From: a virus
Direction: 5' to 3' (one strand)
DNA: 26,623 nucleotides
Virus record (IMG/VR): IMGVR_UViG_3300001472_000134
Coordinates: 1-26,623 of that record
Shown: piece after piece, positions 4,906-25,228 of the stretch
Layout: each line of letters begins with the position of its first letter
Position numbering within the stretch: the stretch's first letter is position 1
Notes under the pieces: model-generated
What the model was told of the DNA's origin: nothing
What the model saw: the letters and a program-made list of their open reading frames with translations, nothing else
The model's database searches: none
Translations under genes and position numbers: made by a program

Positions 4906-4934
4906 ATTATAACAAATTTTGAAACTCGTGTCAA
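4906..4934 (-). promoter_or_regulatory. Sigma-70 promoter for the SSB-SbcC operon
   Basis: On the minus strand TTGACA (4934-4929), a 17-bp spacer and TATAAT (4911-4906). The flanking sequence is AT-rich and the -35 is preceded by CTAC rather than the usual GTTC. The ATG of the downstream gene begins 2 nt after the -10 box. Confidence 0.85.
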
Positions 4935-4954
4935 GTAGTATTTTTCGGAGGTGC

Positions 4955-6235
4955 TTACAGGGTTGATATCTCATATCCTTGTTTGATATAGTACCCTAGT
5001 CGTTGACTAGCCTGTCTCTTTGCAGTTTTTCCGATTAAATTAATATCTACTATTGCGGGTTGTGGTTTTCCTTCATAGTCTCTAATAACCCTACCAATGA
5101 GCTGGGTAAGTAGAGGCTCGTTATTCACTGGTGTTGCCAGTATCAAACAGCTTAGAATGTTTAAAGAAATACCTTCTGAGAATATTGATTGTGTCCCATA
5201 CAGTATGTCTTTATCTTCATAAATCTGTTGAAGTATATCTGGTCTTTCTTCGTGTGGTATATCTCCTGTTACATAAACTGCATTATCACCAGTGAGTTTG
5301 GCACAGTTCTTTAAGAAATCCACTCTATCAGATACTACTAACACTTTATGACCTTTGGCGGCATATGATGCAGCAGCCATTGCCACAGAATGTTGGTACT
5401 CTGGGTTGTAGGCTAACTCATTTATTCGATTAGCCCAAGGTATTGATGTTCCATCTATAAACCTTATAGGTATTTGTAGGATATCAATTTTTGGCACCAT
5501 AAAGTTTTCCTTTGGTGGTTTAAAAACATTATCTCCAAAGTAATCTCGGAAGACAACATGTTTACCATCTTTTCTTTGTAAGGTACCTGTAAGTCCTATC
5601 TTATATCTAGCACAAGACTTATCTATAATTCGTGAGAATGTTGGAGAAGATACATGATGCATTTCATCTAGTATGATTGTTCCAAATTCTTGTCTAATAT
5701 CTTTTATTCTTTTGTATAGTGATTGTATATTTCCTACTACTATAGGAGGTTCTGTATCAAAGCTACCACTACCAATCACTCCAGCTTTAAATCCAAAGAC
5801 TTTGAGTACTTCATTTTCCCACTGCTTACGCAAAGGGACAGTGTGCGTAACTACAAGAGTCTTTTGACCTAACTTACCAGCTATTGCTAAAGCTGTAAAT
5901 GTCTTTCCCCAACTGACCCAAGCGTTAATTATAGCACTGTCATATACTTCATCATATACCAACTGTTGGCTTTCACGTAATTGAAATGCAAAAGCAGGGA
6001 ACTTCTGAGGTTTCTCGGTTCGTTTATCAACTATTTCATAGTCGTTTGGTATTAAATCCTGTCTACCAATAGGTATAGCTATAAGTCCTTGCTTAATTAA
6101 TGCCATGTTCTTAATTATAAATGGTGGGTCACTAAATCTAAAAGAAGGTATAGAATAAGTTAATTCATCATCAATCTTTTTTTGAGTATGCGGAAGCACC
6201 TCCATATAAATCCTATCGCTAAGTACGGCTTTCAT
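4955..6235 (-). CDS. Superfamily 2 DNA helicase, UvsW-like
   Basis: The 426-aa protein has the ordered SF2 motifs: a Q-like LRESQQ near 87-91, Walker A SWGKT (108-112), VVTHT (motif Ia, 128-132), DEMHH (190-194), TGT (216-218), and a C-terminal helicase lobe with GRVIRDYEGK (motif VI, near residue 390). A short N-terminal domain of about 80 residues precedes the motor, as in T4 UvsW. UvsW unwinds R-loops and branched DNA and drives the switch to recombination-dependent replication. The ATG at 6235 overlaps the previous stop as ATGA. Confidence 0.88.
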   Translation of the reverse strand: MKAVLSDRIYMEVLPHTQKKIDDELTYSIPSFRFSDPPFIIKNMALIKQGLIAIPIGRQDLIPNDYEIVDKRTEKPQKFPAFAFQLRESQQLVYDEVYDSAIINAWVSWGKTFTALAIAGKLGQKTLVVTHTVPLRKQWENEVLKVFGFKAGVIGSGSFDTEPPIVVGNIQSLYKRIKDIRQEFGTIILDEMHHVSSPTFSRIIDKSCARYKIGLTGTLQRKDGKHVVFRDYFGDNVFKPPKENFMVPKIDILQIPIRFIDGTSIPWANRINELAYNPEYQHSVAMAAASYAAKGHKVLVVSDRVDFLKNCAKLTGDNAVYVTGDIPHEERPDILQQIYEDKDILYGTQSIFSEGISLNILSCLILATPVNNEPLLTQLIGRVIRDYEGKPQPAIVDINLIGKTAKRQASQRLGYYIKQGYEISTL

Positions 6236-6702
6236 TTTATCCAGTGAAGTCCTTGTAACTCTTTTATATCACTCCATACAAACCAAGCATAGTCAATAGA
6301 GTCTGTTCCTTTTCCTGTAAACGAAGGTCTCTTACTTAGTATATATAATCCATCAGGTGGAAACTGTTGCCAAAAACTATATCTTTTTTGACTACCTAAA
6401 AAATTTATTCTTAGTAACATTACTACTGTAGGAGCGCAAGATAAAGCATGCTCTATAAATTCTTGTGCTAAAGAAAATGGAGGATTGGTAAATACTAAAT
6501 CTACTTCTCCACTATAATCAAAGAAGTTTTTTCCTTCTTCTATTTCTGAGTATGTTGTTTCTATTCCTTTATTTTCTAGAAATGATACTATTCTACCATC
6601 TCCTGCTCCAGCTTCATGAGCTGTCTTAAATTGACTCCAATCTATAGGCAGATGTTCATAGCACCAAGTAGGAGTAGGGTAGTAGTCATTCGGGTGTCTC
6701 AT
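6232..6702 (-). CDS. DNA adenine methyltransferase-like protein
   Basis: The 156-aa protein is a small class I SAM-dependent methyltransferase fold. It starts with DYYPTPTWCYEHL (residues 6-18), then the SAM-binding loop EAGAGDG (30-36) and the catalytic NPPF (73-76) typical of N6-adenine enzymes. It lacks room for a separate target-recognition domain. It could modify phage DNA against host restriction, or mark it. Start and stop both overlap their neighbours by 4 nt. Similar short phage proteins are annotated as Dam-like, but activity is not proven by the motifs. Confidence 0.72.
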   Translation of the reverse strand: MRHPNDYYPTPTWCYEHLPIDWSQFKTAHEAGAGDGRIVSFLENKGIETTYSEIEEGKNFFDYSGEVDLVFTNPPFSLAQEFIEHALSCAPTVVMLLRINFLGSQKRYSFWQQFPPDGLYILSKRPSFTGKGTDSIDYAWFVWSDIKELQGLHWIK

Positions 6703-7067
6703 GCTTCTTTATCAATGTCCCATTTAATTACATTGCTTTTTCTTGGGAAGAGTTTCTTCTTCCACTGCTCTTGTCTATATTCTGTATACCAGTTGCGTCC
6801 ATCTCTTTCAGCTTCGTGAAATATAATGTTAGTAAATATAATTGGTATTATAACTCCTAAGTGGACAATGATAGAAGTTACTATGTCGTAACCATACCAG
6901 CCTAAATAGTATGTAGCAATAAAGCCAAAAAATACAGACCACATTGTAAAGAGTACTAATGTAAAGTACGCTTGTATCGATGCATCGGGTATGTGTCTTA
7001 GCGGATTAAATCGATTATCCATAACGACTCTCCAGCAATCTATAACCCAAAATAATAATTTTTTCAT
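6699..7067 (-). CDS. Two-helix membrane protein of unknown function
   Basis: The 122-aa protein has a hydrophobic N-terminal start, two clear membrane segments (roughly residues 35-57 and 63-85) and a basic C-terminal tail rich in Lys, Arg and Trp. The ATG at 7067 is preferred because GGAG lies at the correct distance and it overlaps the upstream stop as ATGA. The ATG at 7079 itself belongs to that ribosome-binding site. No family is recognised. The position between polymerase and methyltransferase genes does not indicate a role. Confidence 0.65.
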   Translation of the reverse strand: MKKLLFWVIDCWRVVMDNRFNPLRHIPDASIQAYFTLVLFTMWSVFFGFIATYYLGWYGYDIVTSIIVHLGVIIPIIFTNIIFHEAERDGRNWYTEYRQEQWKKKLFPRKSNVIKWDIDKEA

Positions 7068-7543
7068 ATTTTTCTCCATGAATCTTTTTCTTTTTTATTT
7101 GAAGTAGAATACAGAATCCAAGGCATATCTTGTCTATATAATATGCCTGCCCAAGTTTCTGTATCTTTTAAAGGTCTTTCTAGTGTAAAGGGGAAAGGAC
7201 AATCCTTTATCCATAATATACTTGCCACACCTTTTTTATCTGTTCTTAATATTTTGTGGTACTTGAGTTTTACCACTATTGTTTTTTCTTTTGTAAATAC
7301 ATATCCTGCACTATCTATGTAGTGGCTACCTTTATGTCTTAGTAAAGATGATATATCTTTTACCATATACTTTAGAGGGTAGATACTTTTCATAGGAGAC
7401 TGCAATCTTCTTATGCCTAGCGTTTCCCCTTTCATATTAGTATCATCTACTACTTTGTTTTCAATCCAAAGCAATCCATCTGCTGACACTACATCATCAG
7501 TATGGATTGTAAATATTGGAAATTTTAGTCTATCATATATCAT
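7064..7543 (-). CDS. Conserved hypothetical protein downstream of DNA polymerase
   Basis: The 159-aa protein begins MIYDRLKFPIFTIHTDD and has a mixed, soluble composition with alternating strands. No motif is recognised. The ATG at 7543 overlaps the polymerase end by 11 nt and is taken as the start, since an upstream reading to 7594 would lie within polymerase codons. The Shine-Dalgarno is weak, so translation probably depends on ribosomes finishing polymerase. Confidence 0.6.
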   Translation of the reverse strand: MIYDRLKFPIFTIHTDDVVSADGLLWIENKVVDDTNMKGETLGIRRLQSPMKSIYPLKYMVKDISSLLRHKGSHYIDSAGYVFTKEKTIVVKLKYHKILRTDKKGVASILWIKDCPFPFTLERPLKDTETWAGILYRQDMPWILYSTSNKKEKDSWRKI

Positions 7544-9815
7544 ACTTGGCTTCAAACTTTCCAAAGGAATAGTCATCACCAACATCAAAGTCACAACCTA
7601 CAGGAGTTCCTGGGATACTAAATCCTCTATCTAATTGTATAAACTCTTGTAGTTTTTCTGAGTATAACTCTACCTCATTTTCTGGCACTTCTGCAAGAAT
7701 TGAGTCATGGACTAAAGCAAAGATTCTTGACTTCATATTATTTCTTTTGATATATTCATTCATATCAATTCCACCAAGTAAGTTAATATCAGAAGCTACT
7801 GATTGAACTAAGAAGTTCATACCAGATCTAACTTCATGACTTTGTATTCCTTGATTATCAGAATTTACATTCGGTAATCTTCTCTTTCTGCCTGTAGCAC
7901 CATAGATAAATCCATTATCCATAATAAATCTACTACTCTTATCTATCCATGCTTTTAGTTTATGAAACTGTCTAAAGTAATCATCAATGACTTCTTGAGC
8001 CTGAGACTTACTAAAGTAAGTACCTGAGTCTGTAGTAACTTGCTGTGATATTTTATTTGAACCAGCACCATACATAATACCAAATGTTACAGCTTTAGCA
8101 GCCTGTCTATCGGTAGGGTATAGTTCTGCAACTTCATCTGCTTCACAAGGCAAGTTAAATACTAACTTAGCAATATTACTATGAAAGTTACCGCCTTCTT
8201 TGAATATATTCATAAGATTCTTATCATCAGCGAGTACAGCCGCAACATACACTTCTGCAGTTGTTAAGTCCATTGCAACTATCTTGTTGCCTTCTTTGGC
8301 ACGAATACAACCTTTGACAATAGGATTGTCTCTAGGTATTTGTTGCATATTCATTTTACCACTCGAAGAAAGACGACCTGATGTTGTGCCATGCAGATTG
8401 AAACCTGTACGTAGTCTATCATCTCTATCAAGTTGTGGTAATATTTTATCAAGATAAGTATTCTTTATCTTAGACTTTTGTCTTATGCTAAGAATGTGAG
8501 CAGGTATTTCATGTTCTTCTGCTAATTGTTTTAGTACTTCTGCATCTGTTGAGTGTGCACCTGTACCAGTCTTTTTACCTGTAGGTTTTAGTCCTACAAA
8601 ATCAAACAGTAATTGTCTTAGCTGTACTGTACTGTTTGGATTAAATTGTTTTTGATTTACTTGTTCAAACTTTTCTACTGCTTCAAACTCATATAGTTTT
8701 GCAACTGCATTGTCTATGTCATCTTGCATCAAGTCTCTACCTTTCTCTAATCTTTCTTTATCAAAAGGCACTCCGTTATCTTGGGCATCTGTTAGAAAGC
8801 GACAGCCAGGTATCAGTATATTTTCATACACAGACCACAGTTTAGCATTTTTCTTAACAGCTGGATATAGTTTCTCGAATACTAGTAATGTAACTACTGC
8901 GTCCATTGCTGCGTATGTTTTCATAACTTCAAAAGGAATACTATCCCAAGCAAATTCTGCTTTGAGTATTCCCTGTGATTTTCTAAATCCTGCTATCCAA
9001 TCATGCATTGGTTTCTCATAATCACCATAAGGTGTGTACTTCATAGCGAGTTGTTTTAAACCATGTGTGCCTGGCTGTTCTTCCAAGCAATAGTGAAGAA
9101 GCATAGTATCTTCAAAGCGTGGAAACTTGAAGTTGAAATGATACTCAAAGAAAGCTAAGTCAAACTTAGCATTATGAAACACTACCATCTTAGTGTCAAA
9201 TATCTTCTGCATTATTTCCTCGATGTCTGGCGTGATAACATCAGTAAGTATATAGGCACCCATGTCCTTCTTATAAGATAGACTAAATCCTATCATATAA
9301 CCGTCTCTAGGATAAAGTCCTGTTGTCTCTGAGTCGAGTGCTATAAATTTATTAGGGTGGTCTAATGCTGCCTGCAAAAACTCTCTTGCTTCTGCCTCAT
9401 CATCAATTCCTAATGCTTGCTCTTCTGTTACTTGTGCTACTACCAAGTCTCCACTTATAAATTCTTGTATGTTCTTTTTGCTCTCGTCCCAAAGTGGTTT
9501 AGCTTCAGGCTTGAACGAAAGCATAGCAGGATTGATAACGGGCAGAAATTTATCTTCTACACATCTGCCGCTGTATTCTGTGATAGAATTTACACTTGTG
9601 TAATACTTTAAGGCTTCTGAGCCTACAAGTACTACCCAAGTATAATCATCAAGGTTAATTTCTATATCTACATCTGCTTTTAAAATCTTTTTCTTTCTGG
9701 CGTCTGAACACAGAGCATATCTGTCGAACTCAAACGCATTATCAAAGCGGTCTCCCCAATTAGTTCGGGACATCTTTGATTCAATTATTGCTACTTTTGT
9801 CATTTGTTTTTCCAT
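7533..9815 (-). CDS. Family A DNA polymerase with proofreading domain
   Basis: The 760-aa replicative polymerase has a 3'-5' exonuclease with LDSET (Asp161, Glu163), HNAKFD (Asn215, Asp219) and YAAMD (Tyr301, Asp305). The polymerase domain has TSGRLSSSGKMNMQQIPR (about 478-495), motif A with Asp516 and Glu521, motif B RQAAKAVTFGIMYG (570-583) and motif C HDS (703-705). The position equal to E. coli Phe762 is Phe578. Motif A reads DLTTAEVY rather than DYSQIELR, and motif C is HDS rather than HDE. Residues 1-140 resemble the uracil-DNA-glycosylase fold. The ATG at 9815 is 7 nt after a -10 box, so the message should be leaderless. A downstream ATG at 9803 is an alternative. Confidence 0.95.
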   Translation of the reverse strand: MEKQMTKVAIIESKMSRTNWGDRFDNAFEFDRYALCSDARKKKILKADVDIEINLDDYTWVVLVGSEALKYYTSVNSITEYSGRCVEDKFLPVINPAMLSFKPEAKPLWDESKKNIQEFISGDLVVAQVTEEQALGIDDEAEAREFLQAALDHPNKFIALDSETTGLYPRDGYMIGFSLSYKKDMGAYILTDVITPDIEEIMQKIFDTKMVVFHNAKFDLAFFEYHFNFKFPRFEDTMLLHYCLEEQPGTHGLKQLAMKYTPYGDYEKPMHDWIAGFRKSQGILKAEFAWDSIPFEVMKTYAAMDAVVTLLVFEKLYPAVKKNAKLWSVYENILIPGCRFLTDAQDNGVPFDKERLEKGRDLMQDDIDNAVAKLYEFEAVEKFEQVNQKQFNPNSTVQLRQLLFDFVGLKPTGKKTGTGAHSTDAEVLKQLAEEHEIPAHILSIRQKSKIKNTYLDKILPQLDRDDRLRTGFNLHGTTSGRLSSSGKMNMQQIPRDNPIVKGCIRAKEGNKIVAMDLTTAEVYVAAVLADDKNLMNIFKEGGNFHSNIAKLVFNLPCEADEVAELYPTDRQAAKAVTFGIMYGAGSNKISQQVTTDSGTYFSKSQAQEVIDDYFRQFHKLKAWIDKSSRFIMDNGFIYGATGRKRRLPNVNSDNQGIQSHEVRSGMNFLVQSVASDINLLGGIDMNEYIKRNNMKSRIFALVHDSILAEVPENEVELYSEKLQEFIQLDRGFSIPGTPVGCDFDVGDDYSFGKFEAKYDI

Positions 9816-9822
9816 TATATAT

Positions 9823-9851
9823 ATTATATCAAATTCTGAACGCGATGTCAA
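9823..9851 (-). promoter_or_regulatory. Sigma-70 promoter of DNA polymerase, leaderless start
   Basis: TTGACA (9851-9846), 17-bp spacer, TATAAT (9828-9823), preceded by AGTTC. The ATG at 9815 starts 7 nt after the -10 box, where transcription should begin. The TGA stop of the upstream HNH gene is embedded in the -35 hexamer. Confidence 0.9.
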
Positions 9852-10375
9852 GAACTGTTTTTGATTCCTTCTTCTGCTTGCATTGCCGCTTTTATGTGTG
9901 GATTATTATGTCTAGGCGATACAAATCTTAGATTAGATACATGAGGATTCCACCTATCATTATCTATATGGTCTACTTGAAAATAAGACCTCATAATTTC
10001 TTTTAGTTCAATTGAAAAGCTTGACCAGTAAAGTTCCAAATCTAAAGGACATGAATCTATCCATAACCAAGTATCTGCTACTGCTAAATGAACATCAACC
10101 CTTCTTGCTATCATACCAGCTTTTGCATGATTAAGGTCGTATGATTTTGAGCTGTACGCTATACCAATTGTTTCTATTGGAATTTGCAATTTTACAGCTG
10201 GATAATCAGCTTTTGGACTTCTTCTACTCCAAGTTAAGGGTCTGCCTTTTTTACTTACTTTATAACTGATTATTAAACCAGTTCGTGCTATTTTATATCC
10301 TGGAACTATATGCCCACGATATTTTAGTTCTGTTAATTCTTCTTTTCCTGTCCATTCAGGTTGTCTATTATCCAT
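9848..10375 (-). CDS. HNH endonuclease, homing-type
   Basis: The 175-aa protein has the pattern of free-standing phage HNH nucleases: an N-terminal beta-rich part (GHIVPGYKIARTGLI), VHLAVADTW around residues 95-103, and the catalytic segment QVDHIDNDRWNPHVSNLRFV (133-152) followed by RHNN. Such enzymes nick or cut DNA and often spread into replication genes. It is inserted between primase and polymerase, overlapping the primase stop by 8 nt, with its own stop lying inside the polymerase promoter. No intron is visible in the neighbours, which are intact. Confidence 0.85.
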   Translation of the reverse strand: MDNRQPEWTGKEELTELKYRGHIVPGYKIARTGLIISYKVSKKGRPLTWSRRSPKADYPAVKLQIPIETIGIAYSSKSYDLNHAKAGMIARRVDVHLAVADTWLWIDSCPLDLELYWSSFSIELKEIMRSYFQVDHIDNDRWNPHVSNLRFVSPRHNNPHIKAAMQAEEGIKNSS

Positions 10376-14109: not shown

Positions 14110-14865
14110 TTAGTTTCCTATTATTTCTTTTAAGTTGGTTATTATTTTAACACCCCTTTCTTGGGCTGTCCTTGTTTTTGCGGACTCTACACCGCTTTCA
14201 TTAACTAATATATTTACATCTTTAGTCAAACTACTTTTAACAAGATAGCCCAGTTTTTCTAAATATTCTGTTGCTTGAGCTTTTGTCTTGTAGCTTTTTA
14301 GTTTTCCTGAAATACAAACGACTCCTTTATTCCCTGTAGGTTTAGATACTTTTAGTATCTGTATCCACTTGAATGGAAGTCGTTCATACCCGTTTATAAA
14401 CTCGTCGTAATACCAGTCCAATAAATGTTCTGTTGCTACTGGTCCAAGTCCTGCTTCTTTGCAAGTTTCCTCACTAAGTTCTGCCATGTTTTTAATAACA
14501 GAGCAAATTTTTGCAGAAGCTGACCGACCAATTAGTTTGATAGAGAAAGCTGGTAACAAGTCGACTAAGTCAGTAGCCTTACTACTTTGTATTTCTCTAT
14601 GCAGTTTAACTGCTAGTTTCTCGGATTGAAGTGCGTCTATCATAATTTCTAGAGGCATTTCATATAAATCGAAGTAATCGATTAATTGTAGTTTTTCAAC
14701 TGTTCTAGGTCCGAGACCTTTGATTTTGAGAGTAGAAGCAAAATGCTCAATCTTTTTACTTGTCTTGCCTGCGCAATTCAGGTTATTACAATAGAGCTGG
14801 TCTTTAACCCACTCAAGCTGTGTCATACAAGATGGACAGTGCGTTGGCGGGAGTATTTGCTTCAT
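14110..14865 (-). CDS. NAD+-dependent DNA ligase, C-terminal subunit (Zn-HhH-BRCT)
   Basis: The 251-aa protein equals the back half of a bacterial LigA. It has a four-cysteine zinc finger (Cys10, Cys13, Cys26, Cys31), helix-hairpin-helix repeats including IKGLGPRTVEKL (48-59) and a second around AGLGPVATEHLL, and a C-terminal BRCT domain starting VVCISGKLKSYKTKAQA. No adenylation domain is present; that is encoded by the separate gene at 16144. The two products should form a two-subunit ligase, as described for phage T5. A promoter 28 nt upstream and AAGAGAG supply expression. Confidence 0.88.
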   Translation of the reverse strand: MKQILPPTHCPSCMTQLEWVKDQLYCNNLNCAGKTSKKIEHFASTLKIKGLGPRTVEKLQLIDYFDLYEMPLEIMIDALQSEKLAVKLHREIQSSKATDLVDLLPAFSIKLIGRSASAKICSVIKNMAELSEETCKEAGLGPVATEHLLDWYYDEFINGYERLPFKWIQILKVSKPTGNKGVVCISGKLKSYKTKAQATEYLEKLGYLVKSSLTKDVNILVNESGVESAKTRTAQERGVKIITNLKEIIGN

Positions 14866-14892: not shown

Positions 14893-14921
14893 ATTATAAC
14901 AAAATTCAGTTCCCATGTCAA
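14893..14921 (-). promoter_or_regulatory. Sigma-70 promoter of the ligase C-terminal gene
   Basis: TTGACA (14921-14916), 17-bp spacer, TATAAT (14898-14893), preceded by AGTTC. The predicted leader is about 20 nt and holds an AAGAGAG ribosome-binding site. The stop codon of the upstream gene (14918-14920) lies in the -35 box. Confidence 0.9.
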
Positions 14922-15585: not shown

Positions 15586-16144
15586 CAAACCACTCATGTA
15601 CTAAGTTGTCAAATAATTCATCTGCAACTCCATGTCCTTCAATCTCGTCCCACCAATCAAAGTTTTCATCAGATATATCTACTTTATATTTAGTTTCGAA
15701 CTGTTCTGTTAGCTCGTCTCCATCTATTTCTTCGTAGTCTCCATTAAACCAAACTCCAATAAAGTTTCTAAACTCATCTTCATAATTACATTTAATTACT
15801 ACTTCTTCATCTAGTTTTATTAAGTGTTGGTGTAAACTTTCTAAGTAAGGAATTACTGGGCTCCATGCACTTACTATGTAAGCACTAAATTCATCGGCGT
15901 CTTCTATATGAGCCCATTTGGCTCCTATATTTTCACAACCCCAATCATACCAGTTATCTTCGTCATAGCCTTCTAGAAATGGGTGTTTTTGTATTTCAAA
16001 CCACTCCCATATTTCTATAGTGCCATCTCCATGATAACTAGGTCTTTCTACTTTCTCTCCATAGTTTGTAAACAACTTATCCCATTCTAGTTGTACTGCT
16101 TCGTTTCCTTCCACAGTAAGATAATTATATACATGATTTGCCAT
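15572..16144 (-). CDS. Api92/YubB-like (ferredoxin-like fold) phage protein
   Basis: The 190-aa, very acidic protein begins MANHVYNYLTVEGN, has YDWGCENIGAKWAH (about 66-79) and SAWSPVIPYLESL (about 92-104). These features match the Api92/YubB ferredoxin-like family of phages and plasmids, whose role is unknown. The C-terminal half is rich in Asp and Glu. AAGGAG precedes the ATG, which overlaps the ligase N-terminal gene stop as TAATG. It is one of three genes separating the ligase halves. Confidence 0.65.
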   Translation of the reverse strand: MANHVYNYLTVEGNEAVQLEWDKLFTNYGEKVERPSYHGDGTIEIWEWFEIQKHPFLEGYDEDNWYDWGCENIGAKWAHIEDADEFSAYIVSAWSPVIPYLESLHQHLIKLDEEVVIKCNYEDEFRNFIGVWFNGDYEEIDGDELTEQFETKYKVDISDENFDWWDEIEGHGVADELFDNLVHEWFDEVF

Positions 16145-17094
16145 TAGTCTATTCTCCTTACTATTCTTGGTATAATTTCACCACTTCGTATAACTTCTAC
16201 TTTACAACCTAATTCTAAACCCATATCTCCTATATATCTTGCATTATGTAAAGTTGCTTTGCTTACTACAGCACCATCAATATCTACAGGTTGTAGCATT
16301 GCTACTGGAGCTACTACTCCTGACTTTCCGACATTCCATACTACATCAAGGAGAGTGGTGATAACTCCTTCTTGTATTTGTTTGAGTGCATAAGCACCTC
16401 TTGGGTGGTGTGAAGTATACCCTCTCTTTTCAAACTCGACATTAGAATTAATTCTAAATACAATTCCATCATCTGGGTACTCAGACCAATTACTATCCAT
16501 AACTGTATCAAAGAAATATCGTTTCAGTAATTGTATGTCGCAAGACCATTCGGGTTTTTGAGAGGGGGTAAGTCCATATGCGATGAAGCGTAAATCTCTT
16601 TCCATAAATTCATTAATGTCTTTTAGGTTAAGAGCGCCAGCTGCATAATTTCTAGCATTTTTAATTGTTCTTGGTGCTACTACTTCGCCTGTAACTTGAA
16701 AGTATTCAATCTTTGTAGCTATGCTACGAGGGACTAATGTTTCCATTTGTCTTGTTATATCCAATCCCTTCTTGCCATCTCCTCTTGTCAAGGCTCGATG
16801 TAGTTTTCCACCGACATAGAGTAAAGATACTGCAGCGCCGTCCAATTTAGGACTGACAATAACAGTATCTTTATAACTATTGAAAGGGTCTTTAGTACTT
16901 ACTTCATTACTAAAAACCTTTTGTAAAGAAAACATCTGAAAAGCATGAGGATAGCGATTATCTTTACTAGATGCGCCAACATCTTCATAATTTACTAACT
17001 CAGCTAGTCTATCAAATTCTGTATCAGACATGATAGGACTGCCGTTATAGTATGCAATCGCTGCCTTTCTTAAACTTGCTTTTATATTTTCCAT
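16144..17094 (-). CDS. NAD+-dependent DNA ligase, N-terminal subunit (adenylation + OB)
   Basis: The 316-aa protein has a short Ia domain with YYNGSPIMSDTEFDRL (15-30), which binds NMN of NAD+. The nucleotidyltransferase domain has the adenylated Lys83 in SPKLDG (81-86), LTRGDGKKG (102-110) and GEVVAP (136-141). An OB domain ends with VEVIRSGEIIPRIV. It stops where cellular LigA would continue into the zinc finger, which is encoded at 14110. The ATG at 17094 lies 6 nt from a -10 box, so the transcript should be leaderless. Confidence 0.93.
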   Translation of the reverse strand: MENIKASLRKAAIAYYNGSPIMSDTEFDRLAELVNYEDVGASSKDNRYPHAFQMFSLQKVFSNEVSTKDPFNSYKDTVIVSPKLDGAAVSLLYVGGKLHRALTRGDGKKGLDITRQMETLVPRSIATKIEYFQVTGEVVAPRTIKNARNYAAGALNLKDINEFMERDLRFIAYGLTPSQKPEWSCDIQLLKRYFFDTVMDSNWSEYPDDGIVFRINSNVEFEKRGYTSHHPRGAYALKQIQEGVITTLLDVVWNVGKSGVVAPVAMLQPVDIDGAVVSKATLHNARYIGDMGLELGCKVEVIRSGEIIPRIVRRID

Positions 17095-17100: not shown

Positions 17101-17129
17101 ATTATATCAAAAATAACTTGCAATGTCAA
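17101..17129 (-). promoter_or_regulatory. Sigma-70 promoter of ligase N-terminal gene, leaderless
   Basis: TTGACA (17129-17124), 17-bp spacer, TATAAT (17106-17101). The ATG at 17094 begins 6 nt after the -10 box, so no leader is expected. Confidence 0.9.
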
Positions 17130-17760: not shown

Positions 17761-17763
17761 TAA

Positions 17764-18210
17764 TTAGTCATTGATTGCGTTGATAATCCCTGTGAAGTAT
17801 ACTGAAGCTTTACCAGTAAGTTTACTGATAATGTCATTGTCTACTTCTTGACCTGCATCACTAATAGCTGCTGATAATGTTTCAGCTGCATCAGCTTTTG
17901 ATACTCTAGCTGCACCACCACCTGTGGATTTGCTAGCGCCTGTTGCAGGGGATTTCTTAACATATACGCCTGCTTTAGTAAGAATCATTCTGACTCCATT
18001 AGGGCTTTCACCTAACTCTTCAGCTATGTCTTTGACAATTTCCATACTTGTTTCTGGTGTTGCCTCAGCATCTGTATACATTTCAACGGCTTGTGCTTTG
18101 GATTCATCTGTCCATGCCATGCGTCTTCTCCTTTTATGTTTGAGATATTCGGGTAAGCCGGGTGCCCAGCCTGTCGCGTCTCTCATTTGGTTATAATATC
18201 TATCACTCAT
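17764..18210 (-). CDS. Single-module Myb/SANT-like HTH protein
   Basis: The 148-aa protein has a basic N-terminus (KHKRRRRMAW), then a module starting AWTDESKAQAVEMY (about 32-45) and ending GVRMILTKAGVYVKK, close in style to the modules at 13382 and 25055. A Gly/Ser linker leads to an acidic-hydrophobic C-terminal part (ADAAETLSAAISDAGQEVDN) that might dimerise. The ATG at 18210 is 8 nt from the -10 box, so the message should be leaderless. A DNA-binding regulator is likely, with target unknown. Confidence 0.68.
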   Translation of the reverse strand: MSDRYYNQMRDATGWAPGLPEYLKHKRRRRMAWTDESKAQAVEMYTDAEATPETSMEIVKDIAEELGESPNGVRMILTKAGVYVKKSPATGASKSTGGGAARVSKADAAETLSAAISDAGQEVDNDIISKLTGKASVYFTGIINAIND

Positions 18211-18218
18211 TACTATAT

Positions 18219-18247
18219 ATTATACAGAAAAATAAGTGCTATGTCAA
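18219..18247 (-). promoter_or_regulatory. Sigma-70 promoter of the 148-aa Myb-like gene, leaderless
   Basis: TTGACA (18247-18242), 17-bp spacer, TATAAT (18224-18219), preceded by AGTTC. ATG at 18210, 8 nt after the -10 box. Confidence 0.9.
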
Positions 18248-18250
18248 GAA

Positions 18251-18463: not shown

Positions 18464-18464
18464 T

Positions 18465-18719: not shown

Positions 18720-18729
18720 TATTTTCTCC

Positions 18730-19413: not shown

Positions 19414-19681
19414 CGCTTCCCAATAATATAATAGCATAGTGAATTACTTTTAATAAGTCTAATTCATTTTTGCCTTGTTTCTTTCCATAACGCTTTGCAT
19501 ATTTCATAATATTTCCTATACAAAACCCTTCTCCATGCCCTGAATCTATAATAAATTCAGTAGCTTGAATTTTATCTGTGCTGTAGTGTTGGTCATAAGT
19601 ATTATCAATGTAAGCCTGTAGCTTAATAAGCATTTTATCTTCATTGAATTTATACTTAGTTTTCTTACTAAATATCCCCAT
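19400..19681 (-). CDS. DUF3310 family protein
   Basis: The 93-aa protein ends in the typical DUF3310 block: QATEFIIDSGHGEGFCIGNI (39-58), then MKYAKRYGKKQGKNELDLLK and a hydrophobic helix. The family is common in phages, often next to nucleotide metabolism genes such as MazG, as here. Its biochemical role is not established. It overlaps MazG by 14 nt. Confidence 0.8.
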   Translation of the reverse strand: MGIFSKKTKYKFNEDKMLIKLQAYIDNTYDQHYSTDKIQATEFIIDSGHGEGFCIGNIMKYAKRYGKKQGKNELDLLKVIHYAIILLGSDETD

Positions 19682-20120: not shown

Positions 20121-20298
20121 TTTCTTTCTCCACTATGTCTTGTATGTCTGCTAATTTATACCACAGTCCTGAATACATAGACTGTCTGCCGTCTTCGTAT
20201 ACTACTGTGTATCTTTTGTACCCATAAGGTCTATCGGAAAATATTCTAGCAAATGGATATATACCACCTACATCATACGCTCCTTCTAATAATCTCAT
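20101..20298 (-). CDS. Hypothetical protein (65 aa)
   Basis: A small soluble protein with many aromatic residues (GGIYPFARIFSDRPYGYKRY, then YSGLWYKLADIQDI). No motif is recognised. It overlaps the upstream stop as ATGA and the MazG start by 20 nt, so it belongs to the same message. Confidence 0.55.
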   Translation of the reverse strand: MRLLEGAYDVGGIYPFARIFSDRPYGYKRYTVVYEDGRQSMYSGLWYKLADIQDIVEKEIDNRKI

Positions 20299-20891
20299 CT
20301 TGTTATCCTACTTTCGTAATCAGCGTAATCTTCATTCCACCAATGTGGTTTATCTCTAAACTTCCAACTAGCAAAGGTAGCTTTGTCAAGATGATAGTAG
20401 TCTCTATAAGACTGTATAGGATTTTCATAATCCTTTAGTTCATCAGGCATAGCTAATCCAAATTCTGTAAAGCCTAGTCTTTTCATATGTACTGGCTCAG
20501 GTAGTTTGTTTACTACTTCATGTATGGACTTATGTTCTTTGCCATATCTGTATCTGTACTCGTCATTCAAAGCATTGCCGTAGCAGTGTGTCCACTCGTG
20601 ATTGTCTAGTGATGACCTTGCCCAAATAGTGCATGGGTGGTTATACATCATAGGTAAGTATGGTGTAATTGGTCTTTCTGCTGGGGGTAGATGTTTTATC
20701 TTTGCTTTTTCTTCATTGAGTACATCTCGTTCTTCTTTGTTGAGTGCACGAGGTACAAAACCCAAGAACTTGTCAATCCATATGCTAGTGCATAATATTT
20801 GAGCAACCTCTAGCGGCATCTTGACAATATGTTTGTCAACATGGTACTCGGCACACTTATCTAAATTTTTGTCTAAGTAAAATAAATTCAT
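20295..20891 (-). CDS. Conserved phage/bacterial protein, pyrimidine-dimer-glycosylase-like annotation
   Basis: The 198-aa protein starts MNLFYLDKNLDKCAEYHVDK, continues HIVKMPLEVAQILCT, and has NHPCTIWARSSLDN (about 89-102), TEFGLAMPDEL and IQSYRDYYHLDKATFASW. This pattern belongs to a widespread family that databases sometimes label pyrimidine dimer DNA glycosylase, on uncertain grounds. The ATG at 20891 is chosen because it lies 6 nt after a -10 box; a longer reading to 20906 would include promoter sequence. The message should be leaderless. Confidence 0.68.
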   Translation of the reverse strand: MNLFYLDKNLDKCAEYHVDKHIVKMPLEVAQILCTSIWIDKFLGFVPRALNKEERDVLNEEKAKIKHLPPAERPITPYLPMMYNHPCTIWARSSLDNHEWTHCYGNALNDEYRYRYGKEHKSIHEVVNKLPEPVHMKRLGFTEFGLAMPDELKDYENPIQSYRDYYHLDKATFASWKFRDKPHWWNEDYADYESRITR

Positions 20892-20897
20892 ACATAT

Positions 20898-20926
20898 ATT
20901 ATACAAAATTTTGAGAGCGGTGTCAA
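20898..20926 (-). promoter_or_regulatory. Sigma-70 promoter of the 198-aa gene, leaderless
   Basis: TTGACA (20926-20921), 17-bp spacer, TATAAT (20903-20898). ATG at 20891, 6 nt after the -10 box. Confidence 0.88.
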
Positions 20927-20929
20927 GTA

Positions 20930-21163
20930 TTATTTTATGATTTGTGAGAACTCAGTATAGCCTCCGATGCTCTCTTTGTCTATGAAGATTTGTGGGAATG
21001 TTCTGGCGGTGGGTACTCTTTCGAGTAGTTCGTGAAGTTCAAAATCTACACCTAATTTATATACTACATACTTATTAGATGATTCTTGAACCATTTGTTG
21101 TGCTTGTTTTACTGCCATGTCGCAGTAAGGACAGTTATCTTTACTATAAATTTCTATGTTCAT
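20930..21163 (-). CDS. Glutaredoxin
   Basis: The 77-aa protein has the dithiol site CPYC (Cys11-Cys14) after a first strand IEIYSKDN, the cis-Pro loop TFPQIFID (55-62) and the GSH-binding GGYTEF (67-72). It can reduce disulfides, including those of ribonucleotide reductase. The ATG at 21163 is chosen because it overlaps the cytochrome stop as ATGA and gives the expected length. Confidence 0.93.
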   Translation of the reverse strand: MNIEIYSKDNCPYCDMAVKQAQQMVQESSNKYVVYKLGVDFELHELLERVPTARTFPQIFIDKESIGGYTEFSQIIK

Positions 21164-21603
21164 TTCATTGTTTCCTCTATGAATTTTCCTATTGTTGCTA
21201 TTTCTTGTTCTGAGAGCATGCCTGCTTGAGCCCACATTGTAGAGCTCATTGCTCCAACCTGGCCTCTATTCTTATATGTAGTAAGCCTATCAACTATGTA
21301 ATCAGCTGATTGACCTGCTAACTTAGGAAATACTGCCATACCTTGTCCGTCTGGTCCATGGCATGCTGCACACCCTGCCCATAAACTTTTTATTGAACTG
21401 AATTCGTCTGCTGCTGCAAGAGCCTGCTTAGCTCTAAGTATATCTACTGATGTACCATTTAGTGCAACATATTCTTCGTAGCACTCACCTGTACATGAAT
21501 GTCCTCCACCATATCCACTATACTCTAAGTTAGGATAAATTTTGAGTGTAAAGAATCCAAAAATTACCGATACTCCTATCATTGTCATTCCTAATTCTCT
21601 CAT
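21160..21603 (-). CDS. Membrane-anchored c-type cytochrome (class I)
   Basis: The 147-aa protein has an N-terminal membrane anchor (about residues 5-23), a linker with CTGEC, and a small class I heme domain. Heme attachment is GCAACHGPDGQG (Cys78, Cys81, His82); VFPKLAGQSADYIVDRL and a Met-rich AMSSTMWAQ (Met119 or Met123 as axial ligand) follow, then the terminal helix. It resembles c4/c553 electron carriers and would act on the periplasmic side of the host inner membrane, matured by host machinery. The ATG at 21603 overlaps the 57-aa membrane gene stop as ATGA. A longer reading to 21723 is not supported. Confidence 0.9.
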   Translation of the reverse strand: MRELGMTMIGVSVIFGFFTLKIYPNLEYSGYGGGHSCTGECYEEYVALNGTSVDILRAKQALAAADEFSSIKSLWAGCAACHGPDGQGMAVFPKLAGQSADYIVDRLTTYKNRGQVGAMSSTMWAQAGMLSEQEIATIGKFIEETMK

Positions 21604-21773
21604 TCGAACGCTACTCCTATCATTAGCATAGATACACCCATAAATCCTAACACTAATACCTGAACTACAGACATTACTGCTATTTGTTTCATAGGGTGTA
21701 CCTCTACTACTTTTTCTACCCAAGCTTCACTTGGGGAAAGGTTTATTATTTGCAACACCTTTTCTTCTTTCAT
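21600..21773 (-). CDS. 57-aa single-span membrane protein coupled to cytochrome c
   Basis: It starts MKEEKVLQIINLSPSEAWVE, then has one hydrophobic span (about residues 30-55) ending VAFE. It begins directly after the stop of the candidate holin gene and its TGA overlaps the cytochrome ATG (ATGA), so the two are translated together. A cytochrome partner, a second holin or an unrelated membrane peptide are all possible. No family is recognised. Confidence 0.7.
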   Translation of the reverse strand: MKEEKVLQIINLSPSEAWVEKVVEVHPMKQIAVMSVVQVLVLGFMGVSMLMIGVAFE

Positions 21774-22151
21774 TTATTTACCATTAATTTTATCTTTTGC
21801 CGTTCCAGCATATAGTCCAAACCAGGCTGCTCCTGCTCCTACTACCACTGAAATCAATCCTGATTGTTCAAATGTTGGTTCTGGTAATTCCATAAACCAT
21901 ATTGTACACTTATATAATAATATAATATATACTGATAAAAACGCTCTAGGGAATATTCTCCATGCGTCTATCATGTTTGATAACCATATCCACTTCTGCC
22001 ATGGATTATCTGGTTCTCTTTCGTTCTCCATCTCCATAATCTTGGCTTTTAATTCACCAATTTCTGAAACCATTGCCATAAATTTATTAAGGTCAATCTC
22101 TACCTCGTTACGACTCATGTCGCCTTGAAATTGTTCACTAGGTTGTGCCAT
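21774..22151 (-). CDS. Candidate holin (two membrane spans)
   Basis: The 125-aa protein has an acidic N-terminus with a short coiled coil (VSEIGELKAKIMEMENERE, 28-46), a Trp-rich segment, and two membrane spans (about 70-88 and 98-117) with a charged end. This plan resembles marine phage proteins annotated as holins. The lysozyme lies in the same transcription unit, which supports a lysis role. Holin function is inferred. Confidence 0.55.
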   Translation of the reverse strand: MAQPSEQFQGDMSRNEVEIDLNKFMAMVSEIGELKAKIMEMENEREPDNPWQKWIWLSNMIDAWRIFPRAFLSVYIILLYKCTIWFMELPEPTFEQSGLISVVVGAGAAWFGLYAGTAKDKINGK

Positions 22152-22176
22152 TTCTATTTCCTATTTCTAAGTTTCC

Positions 22177-22467
22177 TTAGCCTGTGGTTATACTATCTTT
22201 TAACCACTTATACTCATCACTTTCCAAATCTATTGGTGCTACTAATGTAGCGTGAACATGATTAGTATTTTCTTTAAACTGACCTTCATTAACTGCATCT
22301 AATATCCAGTCAGCTGGGTCATCTTTTGTCATATTTTGTGTAAATATAACTTCAACTTTATATCCTACTAGTTTTTCCATTTGTCTTTTCTTTTGTTTCC
22401 TTTCGTTACTAGCGTGCATGGTTTTAACCCATTCATCGCTGTCTTTCTGCCATTGTTTTGAGTTCAT
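22177..22467 (-). CDS. Hypothetical protein (96 aa)
   Basis: The protein has a charged helix (KQWQKDSDEWVKTMHASNER) and a strand-rich half (YKVEVIFTQN, then VHATLVAPIDLESDEY). AGGA lies upstream of the ATG. It overlaps the end of the 46-aa coiled-coil gene by 35 nt. No family is recognised. Confidence 0.58.
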   Translation of the reverse strand: MNSKQWQKDSDEWVKTMHASNERKQKKRQMEKLVGYKVEVIFTQNMTKDDPADWILDAVNEGQFKENTNHVHATLVAPIDLESDEYKWLKDSITTG

Positions 22468-22573
22468 GTATTTCCTTTATGAGTTCATCTACTCTTTTGT
22501 AGGACTCTTGTAGTTGTTTTTGTACTTCTTTTAGGTTTTGTTTTAGTACTATGACTTCATCAAGTTCCATCAT
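22433..22573 (-). CDS. 46-aa coiled-coil peptide
   Basis: The frame reads MMELDEVIVLKQNLKEVQKQ and continues with heptads to ELKTMAERQR. Nearly all residues are helical and regularly hydrophobic at a/d-like positions, as in a coiled coil. Its ATG overlaps the upstream stop as ATGA. It fills what would otherwise be a 100-nt gap. It may be a lysis or adaptor peptide; the role is unknown. Confidence 0.6.
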   Translation of the reverse strand: MMELDEVIVLKQNLKEVQKQLQESYKRVDELIKEIHELKTMAERQR

Positions 22574-22782
22574 ATTTGTTTAATACCTAGTACGAAGTTT
22601 TCTGCGCAATCTTCTGCCCAGCTTTCACTATGTGTTGGATAATATTCTGTTAGTCCTGGCTTATCCCCATTCTTCATGTGAACACCCCAGCTATCATTTA
22701 TTCTGTGTTTTACAACATGAGCGACTCTATCGCCTTCCATGTATGTGGAGTATACTTTATACTCATTGTTTGTGTTTTGCAT
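22570..22782 (-). CDS. Hypothetical protein (70 aa)
   Basis: The protein has a strand-rich first half (EYKVYSTYMEGDRVAHVV, RINDSWGVHM) and ends with an acidic helix. AAAGGA precedes the ATG. It overlaps the RHH-like gene by 20 nt. No family is recognised. Confidence 0.58.
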   Translation of the reverse strand: MQNTNNEYKVYSTYMEGDRVAHVVKHRINDSWGVHMKNGDKPGLTEYYPTHSESWAEDCAENFVLGIKQI

Positions 22783-22918
22783 CTTTTTCCTTTAGTAGTG
22801 TGAAGGCTTCAGTTATATACTCATCAATAGTCATACCTCTTTCGGTTGCTTGTTGATTCATAGCGTCCCACATCTCTTGTGAGATTTGATACTCTTTGCC
22901 TTCGAATTTAATTTGCAA
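22763..22918 (-). CDS. 51-aa ribbon-helix-helix-like protein, TTG start
   Basis: The frame from TTG at 22918 gives a first strand MQIKFEGKEYQIS followed by two helices (QEMWDAMNQQATERGMT and IDEYITEAFTLLKEK), the plan of small RHH repressors of the Arc/MetJ type. GAGG lies 10 nt upstream and the start overlaps the lysozyme end. An ATG start would remove the strand that contacts DNA in this family. A regulator of the late genes is possible; no operator was identified. Confidence 0.6.
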   Translation of the reverse strand: MQIKFEGKEYQISQEMWDAMNQQATERGMTIDEYITEAFTLLKEKDAKHKQ

Positions 22919-23333
22919 ACAGGTCTGCCTCAGCTTGTCTTCTTCTTGTAAGTCCTTCTAAAACTTTGCCACCTGCTTTATTCCATCTCATCATTTGAGC
23001 TGGTACACCTGCATAATCTCCTGCGTTTAATACTTTCAAAAGCGTACTTGCTTTTAAGTTTCCAACTCCTAGATTATAAACCCATGATACCATAGCATCA
23101 AACTGGTTTTGGTTTAATTCAACAGTTACTAAGCCAGTAATATAACTTTCATATTCATTTAGTTCTTCTACTAGCATTTCATTTGCTGTATTTTCTGAAA
23201 TAACCATACCTTGTTGCACATCTTTAGTGTGCCCGTAGCCTATTGTCCATACGCCTGCAGCGCATTGATAAGCATTTAATTCTAGACCTTCAAAATGTTT
23301 AATCATTTCTAGTCCTTTTGTTCCTATATTCAT
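22908..23333 (-). CDS. Phage lysozyme (glycoside hydrolase 24)
   Basis: The 141-aa endolysin has the GH24 E-8-C/D-5-T arrangement: Glu15 in HFEG, Cys24 in YQCAAG and Thr30 in WTIGYGHT. The C-terminal helices include WVYNLGVGNLKASTLL and the final GLTRRRQAEADLF. It cleaves peptidoglycan. There is no signal peptide with this start (ATG at 23333, AGGA upstream), so export should rely on a holin. Longer readings to 23444 belong to another gene's frame overlap. Confidence 0.93.
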   Translation of the reverse strand: MNIGTKGLEMIKHFEGLELNAYQCAAGVWTIGYGHTKDVQQGMVISENTANEMLVEELNEYESYITGLVTVELNQNQFDAMVSWVYNLGVGNLKASTLLKVLNAGDYAGVPAQMMRWNKAGGKVLEGLTRRRQAEADLFAN

Positions 23334-23340
23334 TTGTGTC

Positions 23341-23646
23341 CTATATGTAGAAGCTTTCGCCACAGCCGCAGCGTCCACTCTCTTGATTATTTGTGATAAG
23401 AAACTCTTCATTAAGTCCATTAACCACCCAATCCAATTTTGCATCTGTTAGATACTCCTTGCTGTATATATCAATTACTAATATATCTTGATATATCATA
23501 TCAGTTAAGTCAGGACTCTCGGCATAACTTAACTCATATGTATATCCACCACAACCTCCACCCGATACTTTAAGGCGAGCGCCCCAAGCAGAGCTTGAGG
23601 CGACTCTTTCTTTTAACATTGCTAAGGCATTGTCTGTTATCTTCAT
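23341..23646 (-). CDS. A-type Fe-S carrier (IscA/ErpA/HesB family)
   Basis: The 101-aa protein has the three conserved cysteines of the family: Cys32 in GGGCGGYTY and Cys93/Cys95 in GRCGCGESF. These bind or pass iron-sulfur clusters. The start is ATG at 23646, which overlaps the stop of the 52-aa membrane gene as ATGA; a longer reading to 23712 would read that gene in another frame. It is placed between hsp20 and lysozyme, next to redox genes. It could supply clusters to host or phage proteins. Confidence 0.92.
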   Translation of the reverse strand: MKITDNALAMLKERVASSSAWGARLKVSGGGCGGYTYELSYAESPDLTDMIYQDILVIDIYSKEYLTDAKLDWVVNGLNEEFLITNNQESGRCGCGESFYI

Positions 23647-23801
23647 AATATTGGTAGCATCGCTAGATACATTGTTCCAAAGCATACTGTAAACATAATA
23701 ATTACCTCGCACAACTCCCCATCTGGGCAGTATTTGTCTTTAACTTCTTGAATCGCTTGCAACTTGGCATAACGATTAAAGAATCGTTTTGCATATTGCA
23801 T
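23643..23801 (-). CDS. 52-aa single-span membrane protein coupled to iscA-like gene
   Basis: It starts MQYAKRFFNRYAKLQAIQEV, has a middle with two cysteines (YCPDGELCE) and ends in a hydrophobic span (about residues 33-52). AGGAG lies 9 nt before the ATG and overlaps the hsp20 stop, and the TGA overlaps the IscA ATG. No family is recognised. The paired cysteines could bind metal. Confidence 0.72.
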   Translation of the reverse strand: MQYAKRFFNRYAKLQAIQEVKDKYCPDGELCEVIIMFTVCFGTMYLAMLPIL

Positions 23802-23811
23802 AGAGTTTCTC

Positions 23812-24243
23812 CTAGCCTATTGTAATCGTCTTAGGCTTTTCTTCATCAGGTGTATTTACCTGTAGGTTAATAACTAACATACCATTTTTGAATCCCGCGT
23901 CGGATATCTCTACCCAATCGCCCAAAGTGAAAATTCTGCTAAAGGTTTTACCACTTAGTCCTTTATGGACATAGCGTTCCTCTCCAGAATCAAGACCTTG
24001 CTTTTCTGTTCCTTCTATAGTAAGTTTATTTTTGTGTTGCTTGATGTCGATATCATCTTTTGACCAACCTGGCAGAGCCATTTCAATACGGTAGCCCGTA
24101 TCTCCAACTGCTACTAAGTTGTATCTTGGATAGTTAGTCAAGGGTGAACTCTCGTTCCTCCTAGTTAATTCCTTGTTCAAGCGATCAAATCCGACAAATA
24201 ATTTGTCGAAGTCGTTAAAGTTTAATGCTGTTAATCCAGTCAT
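23812..24243 (-). CDS. Small heat shock protein (Hsp20/IbpA-like)
   Basis: The 143-aa protein has an alpha-crystallin domain (about 38-130) with YRIEMALPGWSKDDIDI (51-67), the GMLVINL motif (121-127) and a C-terminal ITI (140-142) that links dimers. It prevents aggregation of unfolded proteins. Hsp20 is common in marine T4-like phages. Expression should be controlled by the 220-nt structured leader at 24244-24467. AGGAG lies upstream of the ATG. Confidence 0.93.
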   Translation of the reverse strand: MTGLTALNFNDFDKLFVGFDRLNKELTRRNESSPLTNYPRYNLVAVGDTGYRIEMALPGWSKDDIDIKQHKNKLTIEGTEKQGLDSGEERYVHKGLSGKTFSRIFTLGDWVEISDAGFKNGMLVINLQVNTPDEEKPKTITIG

Positions 24244-24467
24244 TGGTTTCTCCTATATTCGGCTCCTTTCGGCAGCCTCTATGAGTCCCTTTCGGCAACT
24301 CGGTTATTATAATACTATGTCTAACAAAACCCGACCACTGGTGGAAGTGGTGCTCCTAACCTCGCCCTCGGAACGCTTATGTTTCCTACTCGTGCCAGAC
24401 ATATCGTGGGTTTTGATTTGGAAGTCCCCACAACTCCGCATAAAATCATGTAAAATATAAAATTTTA
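24244..24467 (-). promoter_or_regulatory. Structured 5' leader RNA ahead of hsp20
   Basis: Reading from about 24467 to the ATG. Helix A: 24415-24408 with 24332-24325 (8 bp, CAAAACCC/GGGUUUUG). Helix B: 24403-24397 with 24322-24316 (7 bp). Their order (A5', B5', A3', B3') makes a pseudoknot. Hairpins inside are CCACU/AGUGG (24350-24335) and GGAA/UUCC (24386-24370). Two tandem hairpins follow at 24301-24283 and 24277-24261, each with a GAAA loop and an upstream bulged G (GCCGAAAGG). Part of helix A can instead pair GUGGG (24431-24427) with CCCAC (24410-24406). This could be a riboswitch, thermosensor or stable RNA; I recognise no known class. Confidence 0.68.
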
Positions 24468-24474
24468 CTCTATT

Positions 24475-24503
24475 ATTATATCAAAAAAATACCACCATGT
24501 CAA
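24475..24503 (-). promoter_or_regulatory. Sigma-70 promoter of the hsp20 to glutaredoxin unit
   Basis: TTGACA (24503-24498), 17-bp spacer, TATAAT (24480-24475), preceded by AGTTC. It gives a leader of about 220 nt before hsp20. Confidence 0.9.
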
Positions 24504-24513
24504 GAACTAAATT

Positions 24514-24654
24514 TCAGTCCTCATCAAAGTCTATCTGGCCGTCTGCTTTCAGATAATCTAGGGTATGTCCGATTCCTTGTCTACGCCCAACATTATACAT
24601 GATATGTCCACTAGCAAGAGCCGTGAATACAATCCAAACTACTTGCCAATCCAT
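24514..24654 (-). CDS. 46-aa membrane peptide
   Basis: It reads MDWQVVWIVFTALASGHIMY with one N-terminal span, then a hydrophilic part ending GQIDFDED. AGAGGAG lies 8 nt upstream. It overlaps the previous gene by 16 nt and ends 11 nt before the next -35 box. No family is recognised. Confidence 0.66.
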   Translation of the reverse strand: MDWQVVWIVFTALASGHIMYNVGRRQGIGHTLDYLKADGQIDFDED

Positions 24655-24929
24655 TCTACATCTCCTCTTGGTATTACTTGATACGCGCCTTTGTTGTAAG
24701 CGGGAGCTACTGTGAACTTTTTACTTTCTTCAACCTTCCAAGAATTATCTTCAGTTTTATACTTAGTTTTACTACTAGTTTTTAGACTCGGTATCTTTGG
24801 GGTTGTGTCTGGCGTCTTAAAATTTTTAGTTTTTTGTGCTACAAAGTCAGGTCTAGCCTTCTTTTTGTAAGCATTTGTTTTTCTTTTGCGACCACTCGGA
24901 GAGTAACGCATACTGCCTTGTATTATCAT
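24639..24929 (-). CDS. Small basic hypothetical protein (96 aa)
   Basis: The protein is very basic at the front (SPSGRKRKTNAYKKKARP), with a Ser/Thr/Lys-rich middle and a short end (NKGAYQVIPRGDVEWIGK). It looks partly unfolded and could bind nucleic acid. AAGGA precedes the ATG at 24929; a second ATG at 24911 is possible. It is the first gene after the promoter at 24960. Confidence 0.6.
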   Translation of the reverse strand: MIIQGSMRYSPSGRKRKTNAYKKKARPDFVAQKTKNFKTPDTTPKIPSLKTSSKTKYKTEDNSWKVEESKKFTVAPAYNKGAYQVIPRGDVEWIGK

Positions 24930-24959
24930 AAAATTCCTTATTTATTTTTTATATAATAT

Positions 24960-24988
24960 ATTATACTACTTTTGTGAAGCCAAGTCAA
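24960..24988 (-). promoter_or_regulatory. Sigma-70 promoter of the 96-aa and 46-aa genes
   Basis: TTGACT (24988-24983), 17-bp spacer, TATAAT (24965-24960). The leader is about 24 nt with AAGGA. It forms a divergent pair with the rightward promoter at 25020. Confidence 0.85.
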
Positions 24989-25019
24989 GAAAAATATGAA
25001 GGGTTGCTGAAAATAGTTC

Positions 25020-25048
25020 TTGACATTGGAACTTAATTTTGTTATAAT
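25020..25048 (+). promoter_or_regulatory. Rightward sigma-70 promoter, leaderless
   Basis: TTGACA (25020-25025), 17-bp spacer, TATAAT (25043-25048), preceded by AGTTC. ATG at 25055 begins 6 nt after the -10 box. It is the only strong promoter on the plus strand. Confidence 0.9.
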
Positions 25049-25054
25049 ACACTC

Positions 25055-25228
25055 ATGGAAAATAATAATAAATGGACGGATAAGCAAGTTCGCGAACTAA
25101 AGAAGCTGTATGGAAATCATTCAGCCGCTGAACTCGCAATACACTTCAACAAATCGCCTTCAGCGATTACTTCCAAAGTTCATTATCTAAGAAAGCGAGG
25201 TTGGTCTTTCGATACTACGCGTAGATGA
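25055..25228 (+). CDS. 57-aa Myb/SANT-like protein
   Basis: It starts MENNNKWTDKQVRELKKLYG, continues NHSAAELAIHFNKSPSAITS and ends KVHYLRKRGWSFDTTRR. This is one complete Myb-like module close to those in the 13382 and 17764 genes. No leader is expected from the promoter. Its TGA overlaps the bS21 ATG (ATGA), so it is translated with bS21. It could regulate the divergent promoter, but this is inferred. Confidence 0.78.
   Translation: MENNNKWTDKQVRELKKLYGNHSAAELAIHFNKSPSAITSKVHYLRKRGWSFDTTRR

Follow-up and report, generated by a model that had tools for sequence, protein, structure and literature searches.

In a 26,623-nucleotide stretch of phage DNA (the window, positions 1 to 26,623 of IMG/VR virus record IMGVR_UViG_3300001472_000134), four genes, encoding LigA, a D3-like protein, a phrog_624 protein and a Myb-like protein, are very probably expressed from leaderless mRNAs, as judged from promoter geometry and its conservation in orthologues. 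The spacing between promoter and start codon stays fixed while the intervening bases change, no Shine-Dalgarno (SD) site is present, a gap separates short from long spacings and the start codon is AUG, and together these features strongly support leaderless expression of the four genes. We propose that the window operons would be read from a single stereotyped promoter, AAAAATAGTTC-TTGACA-N17-TATAAT, recognised by a sigma70-type RNA polymerase, and that the start codons of the four genes, which begin at bases 7-9 past the -10 box, would have the RNA start on their A or 1-2 nt before it. The leaderless first cistrons would be translated without an SD site, presumably by 70S ribosomes on the 5'-terminal AUG, many of the downstream operon genes would rely on ordinary SD sites, and the DNA polymerase gene (polA) probably has two usable starts. 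We give this explanation as a whole a probability of about 0.86; within it, we infer the exact RNA 5' end, the use of 70S ribosomes for initiation and any advantage that the phage gains.

According to PHROG matches, the window carries the DNA-metabolism genes of an uncultured marine T5-like phage, its T5-likeness being judged from the D-gene region; the record is without T5-type structural genes and terminal repeats. The T5-type proteins include a family A DNA polymerase, LigA and LigB (a split NAD+ ligase), a D5-like regulator and a helicase, with further matches to a D3-like DNA-binding protein (phrog_1725), phrog_624 and phrog_4258. Compared with saus132 and PM135, the T5 D-gene set (helicase, polA, LigA/LigB, D5-like and D3-like genes) is arranged in T5 order. 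A megablast search of the window against phage records gave no match, and the DNA polymerase shares 44% identity with its best cultured relative and up to 100% with uncultured marine relatives. Four close matches in a genome collection are metagenome bins labelled Halieaceae, Porticoccaceae, Parcubacteria and Bacteroidetes; these bins span different phyla and are too unreliable to point to a host.

Eight perfect TTGACA-N17-TATAAT promoters were found in the window, at 4934, 9851, 14921, 17129, 18247, 20926 and 24503 on the minus strand and at 25020 on the plus strand, against 0.015 expected from first-order Markov resampling of the window. A ninth promoter, TTGACT-N17-TATAAT, lies at 24988 on the minus strand, so that the nine near-consensus promoters with 17-bp spacers counted in the first-pass annotation were all recovered. 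Perfect TTGACA/TATAAT pairs with other spacers (13 to 22) were absent from the window. The promoters and the genes associated with them are as follows, with d denoting the number of nucleotides between the -10 box and the ATG that opens the reading frame.

4906 to 4934, minus strand: perfect promoter of the phrog_4258 gene, whose ATG (4903) lies only 2 nt past the -10 box
7533 to 9815, minus strand: family A DNA polymerase gene (polA), phrog_17, candidate starts ATG 9815 (leaderless) and ATG 9803
9823 to 9851, minus strand: perfect promoter of polA, first ATG (9815) at d = 7
14110 to 14865, minus strand: LigB, d = 27, SD AGAG
14893 to 14921, minus strand: perfect promoter of LigB, ordinary leader
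16144 to 17094, minus strand: LigA, N-terminal part of the split NAD+ DNA ligase, phrog_3359, predicted leaderless first cistron
17101 to 17129, minus strand: perfect promoter of LigA, d = 6
17764 to 18210, minus strand: T5 D3-like DNA-binding protein, phrog_1725, predicted leaderless, with the 5' end expected about 1-2 nt from the AUG
18219 to 18247, minus strand: perfect promoter of the D3-like gene, d = 8
20295 to 20891, minus strand: phrog_624 DNA-binding protein with weak Pyr_excise similarity, predicted leaderless
20898 to 20926, minus strand: perfect promoter of the phrog_624 gene, d = 6
about 24315 to 24468, minus strand: putative conserved structured non-coding RNA of about 155 nt, downstream of the next promoter
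24475 to 24503, minus strand: perfect promoter of the structured RNA, no convincing reading frame (d = 25)
24639 to 24929, minus strand: phrog_4593 gene, d = 30, SD AAGGA
24960 to 24988, minus strand: TTGACT promoter of the phrog_4593 gene, with leader
25020 to 25048, plus strand: perfect promoter of the Myb/D5-like gene, d = 6
25055 to 25228, plus strand: Myb/D5-like putative regulator of 57 aa, matching the middle of phrog_323, predicted leaderless

Sigma70 RNA polymerase usually starts about 7 nt past the -10 box, for example at lacUV5 and T5 N25. The first-pass annotation had placed an ATG 6-8 nt past the -10 box at five promoters (9823, 17101, 18219, 20898 and 25020), and the measured distances bear this out; combined with the usual start point, they predict an RNA whose first base is the A of the AUG or lies 1-2 nt ahead of that A. 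From this geometry, with the AUG at bases 7-9 after the -10 box, the transcript 5' end should lie at or near the start codon. Its description of the genes behind these promoters as including DNA polymerase, a ligase and a Myb-like regulator agrees with the matches to phrog_17, phrog_3359 and phrog_323, and many genes inside the window operons do have the ordinary SD sites it had noted elsewhere. No SD was found upstream of the LigA, D3-like, phrog_624 and Myb-like ATGs in the window. That most strong promoters are of the leaderless type holds for five of the nine, a bare majority only.

Relatives were fetched for six window genes and the regions upstream of the orthologues were compared, yielding 911 promoters in total, 520 of them distinct, which fell into 200 clusters. 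The first ATG counted was one opening a reading frame of at least 40 aa, and counts for single families use distinct promoters. Over the 200 clusters d is bimodal, with 59 at 5-8 nt (42 at exactly 6), about 14 in a near-gap at 9-16 nt and 77 in a broad mode at 17-35 nt, which often comes with SD sites. With a background near 2 ORF-opening ATGs at each position, the 44 at d = 6 are extreme. The comparison of spacing across related phages that had been proposed as a check produced a sharp spike at 6 nt next to a near-gap. No GTG or TTG occupied the leaderless position in clusters without an ATG start. D3 and polA were found both leaderless and leadered among the relatives, and parsimony gave 1-3 changes between the two states per gene, indicating that the states are stable within lineages and that the counts are of non-independent events. 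Codon-position diversity over the first ten codons showed no clear coding constraint.

LigA orthologues have d = 6 exactly at 49 of 60 distinct promoters, with ten different hexamers filling the interval, and phrog_624 orthologues have d = 5-7 at 54 of 59. For the Myb-like gene, d is 6-8 at 22 of 25 promoters, and at 25 of 25 once three copies with d = 0 are re-read, as these carry an extra ATG touching the -10 box plus an ATG at d = 6; a 52-aa family in the relatives has d = 6 at 14 of 14. The D3-like orthologues are more divided (d = 5-8 at 43 of 76 distinct promoters, 28 leadered). A pyrimidine precedes the ATG in every leaderless case of phrog_624 (T in 53 of 54), Myb-like and phrog_4593, as expected for position -1 of a transcription start site, while in LigA this base is mostly A, not a pyrimidine. 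Most of the LigA, D3-like, phrog_624 and Myb-like genes have no alternative plausible start: family profile alignments begin at residue 1 for LigA and phrog_624, and a second in-frame ATG near the start of the Myb-like gene was looked for and none was seen. The predicted true start of phrog_624 is 20891, not the TTG at 20906. This matters for annotation, since a longest-ORF call would put the phrog_624 start at a TTG overlapping its promoter and the polA start at the TTG of polA's own -35 box. The phrog_624 homologues of Pelagibacter, Caulobacter and Methylophilales phages lack such a promoter upstream.

The leaderless reading is very probable for these four genes, in which spacing is kept as bases change and no SD occurs, and is weaker for polA, whose leaderless start is ambiguous as read from the sequence. 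In the window, a second in-frame ATG (9803) lies 12 nt downstream of ATG 9815 and is preceded by a weak SD, GGA. One group of polA relatives (L026-L034) has no upstream ATG, the second ATG carrying a clear AAAGGAAAC-type SD; in others (L045-L064 and the L044/L092 contig) only the first ATG is in frame near the start, and the polymerase of the latter contig, 93% identical to that of the window, has its sole nearby in-frame ATG at 6 nt. For polA, and compatibly with the main reading, both starts may be used, the 5'-AUG by 70S ribosomes and the other through its SD, to which we give roughly even odds. Wherever polA copies have ATGGAA at d = 6-7 and a second ATG, the pair is 12 nt apart and in frame, and first ATGs at d = 11 (L037, L245) are out of frame; moreover, 5'-uAUGs in E. 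coli bind 70S ribosomes and the internal start binds 30S (PMC4965119). Against this, the independent lineages are few.

A simpler account of the short spacing would be genome compaction only, with the real starts lying downstream behind SD sites and the first ATG being incidental. The polA relatives that start at the second ATG, and the GGA before that ATG in the window, are what this account would predict. However, LigA, phrog_624 and the Myb-like gene are without a nearby downstream start that preserves their conserved N-termini, the 6-nt spacing is fixed although the bases vary, the polA of L092 and L045-L064 is left with the first ATG, and compaction alone would not give a gap in which distances of 9-16 nt are rare. 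We consider it quite unlikely. Alternatively, translation of the genes could use longer transcripts that read through from promoters further upstream, the adjacent promoter serving other purposes. The operons are contiguous, and something similar must hold for phrog_4258 if its ATG at d = 2 is used, yet such a longer RNA would have no ordinary ribosome site, there being no SD just upstream of the leaderless ATGs, and the exact 6-nt spacing would be left unexplained, making this highly improbable.

The promoter itself does not define the leaderless class, as its sequence is near-identical between leaderless and leadered genes. Among the relatives, 341 distinct perfect sites have the 17-nt spacer, followed by the 22-nt spacer with 22 sites, and the conserved sequence reaches upstream to give AAAAATAGTTC-TTGACA-N17-TATAAT. 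The C adjoining TTGAC is present in every leaderless cluster representative (100%) and in 99% of the leadered ones, and resembles a CTTGAC -35 form of alphaproteobacteria. The AAAAATAGTTC extension with its near-invariant C is more sequence-specific than a usual UP element; the extension is perhaps bound by an activator of phage or host origin.

Other arrangements share this promoter. The orthologous promoters of phrog_4593 (n = 42) are leaderless in 20 and leadered in 22 cases, a strict SD being present in 20 of the 22. In phrog_4258 orthologues the ATG lies 1-3 nt past the -10 box at 56 of 59 distinct promoters (8 nt in L041), so that the AUG should be absent from the RNA made there, and this case illustrates that promoter and ATG can adjoin for reasons other than leaderless translation. 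The first codons of phrog_4258 (ATGATAAAATATAATTGGGAAAAG) look unusually conserved at the DNA level. The product of the promoter at 24503 appears to be a structured RNA rather than an mRNA. Seventeen sequences align over 24315-24468, with a closing helix (TATGTCT/AGACATA) and a 3' hairpin that show compensatory changes; 7 predicted pairs in all changed on both sides, and the 5' hairpin shows apparent covariation as judged by eye. The RNA matched no family in Rfam, and the window copy alone folded no better than shuffled sequences; from the alignment, it looks like an undescribed phage RNA family. The view of the leaderless genes as a deliberate class accordingly holds for AUG placement and not for the promoter, which is shared with SD-led genes, a putative non-coding RNA and phrog_4258, whose AUG would be untranscribed. 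Leaderless AUG placement is, on the predicted starts, an arrangement of operon heads.

In the corresponding part of the saus132 and PM135 genomes, promoters with a good match are at least 17 nt away from the start, mostly with a strong AGGAG-type SD. Across IMG/VR, the ATG of TTGACA-N17-TATAAT-N6-ATG opened a reading frame of 60 aa or longer in 65% of cases versus 3% in other frames (117 matches listed), compared with 26% versus 12% for an N12 control among the matches listed (P = 1e-7 for N6 versus N12), these figures being samples of the matches listed and no rates. After removal of promoters with the lineage motif, 65 of 102 listed N6 matches still opened a reading frame. When 20 N6-ATG proteins among the matches listed were compared with PHROGs, most named matches belonged to DNA and nucleotide metabolism (clamp loader, primase, exonuclease, dCMP deaminase, thymidylate synthase, UvsY). 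These data suggest that the leaderless arrangement is widespread in environmental phages. Separately, consensus promoters were observed 6 nt before clamp loader, primase, exonuclease and dCMP deaminase genes on contigs without the lineage motif (L324-L443).

An uncultured marine phage lineage keeps a predicted SD-bypassing architecture nearly to the base for its ligase and other replication genes. It is a tentative and rather doubtful extension that environmental phages widely use leaderless AUGs as a selected strategy for expressing early replication genes, giving SD-independent 70S translation of the first cistron of each strong operon. Such translation would possibly be useful when host initiation is disturbed during infection. 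In a host that is itself rich in leaderless messages, as Caulobacter is (PMC4117421), the phage may just be doing what its host does.

Leaderless mRNA is already known; for its systematic use in phage replication genes we found no report, and an incomplete literature search returned none of leaderless expression in T5-like, pelagi- or cyanophages. Many transcripts of the giant phage phiKZ have been described as leaderless. A paper on phage AR9 calls phage transcripts "often leaderless" (PMC5312081), a remark of little weight as its cited source is an E. coli ribosome study. In phage lambda, the cI RNA that starts at the AUG is a model leaderless mRNA (PMC4965119, PMC9031893); that is a single repressor gene of a temperate phage, whereas the window has several T5-like replication genes with many relatives. 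The in-frame AUG pair of the window polA recalls the E. coli 5'-uAUG messages (PMC4965119). Leaderless mRNAs with a 5'-terminal AUG and no SD coexist with leadered ones in Caulobacter crescentus (375) and Sinorhizobium meliloti (171, all AUG) as in the window, although those are host genes with mapped 5' ends and ours are phage genes predicted from sequence and orthologues (PMC4117421, PMC3616915). Leaders in Lactococcus cremoris are shorter than 5 nt or far longer (about 40 nt), the range between 4 and 14 nt being empty, a gap that matches the one in d and was mapped experimentally on a bacterial chromosome (PMC10986495). In Deinococcus-Thermus, a -10 box a few bases before the reading frame yields leaderless mRNA under a spacing requirement (PMC12340547); there the -10 box works without a -35 box, whereas all eight perfect window promoters have TTGACA at exactly 17 bp, and the window promoters have a conserved upstream A tract as well. 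The phages saus132 and PM135 share D-gene content, order and consensus-like promoters with the window and differ by starts at 17 nt or more that are mostly SD-led. SD-led orthologues, in the same lineage and in these cultured T5-like phages, form natural matched pairs for asking when and why leaderless translation is used.
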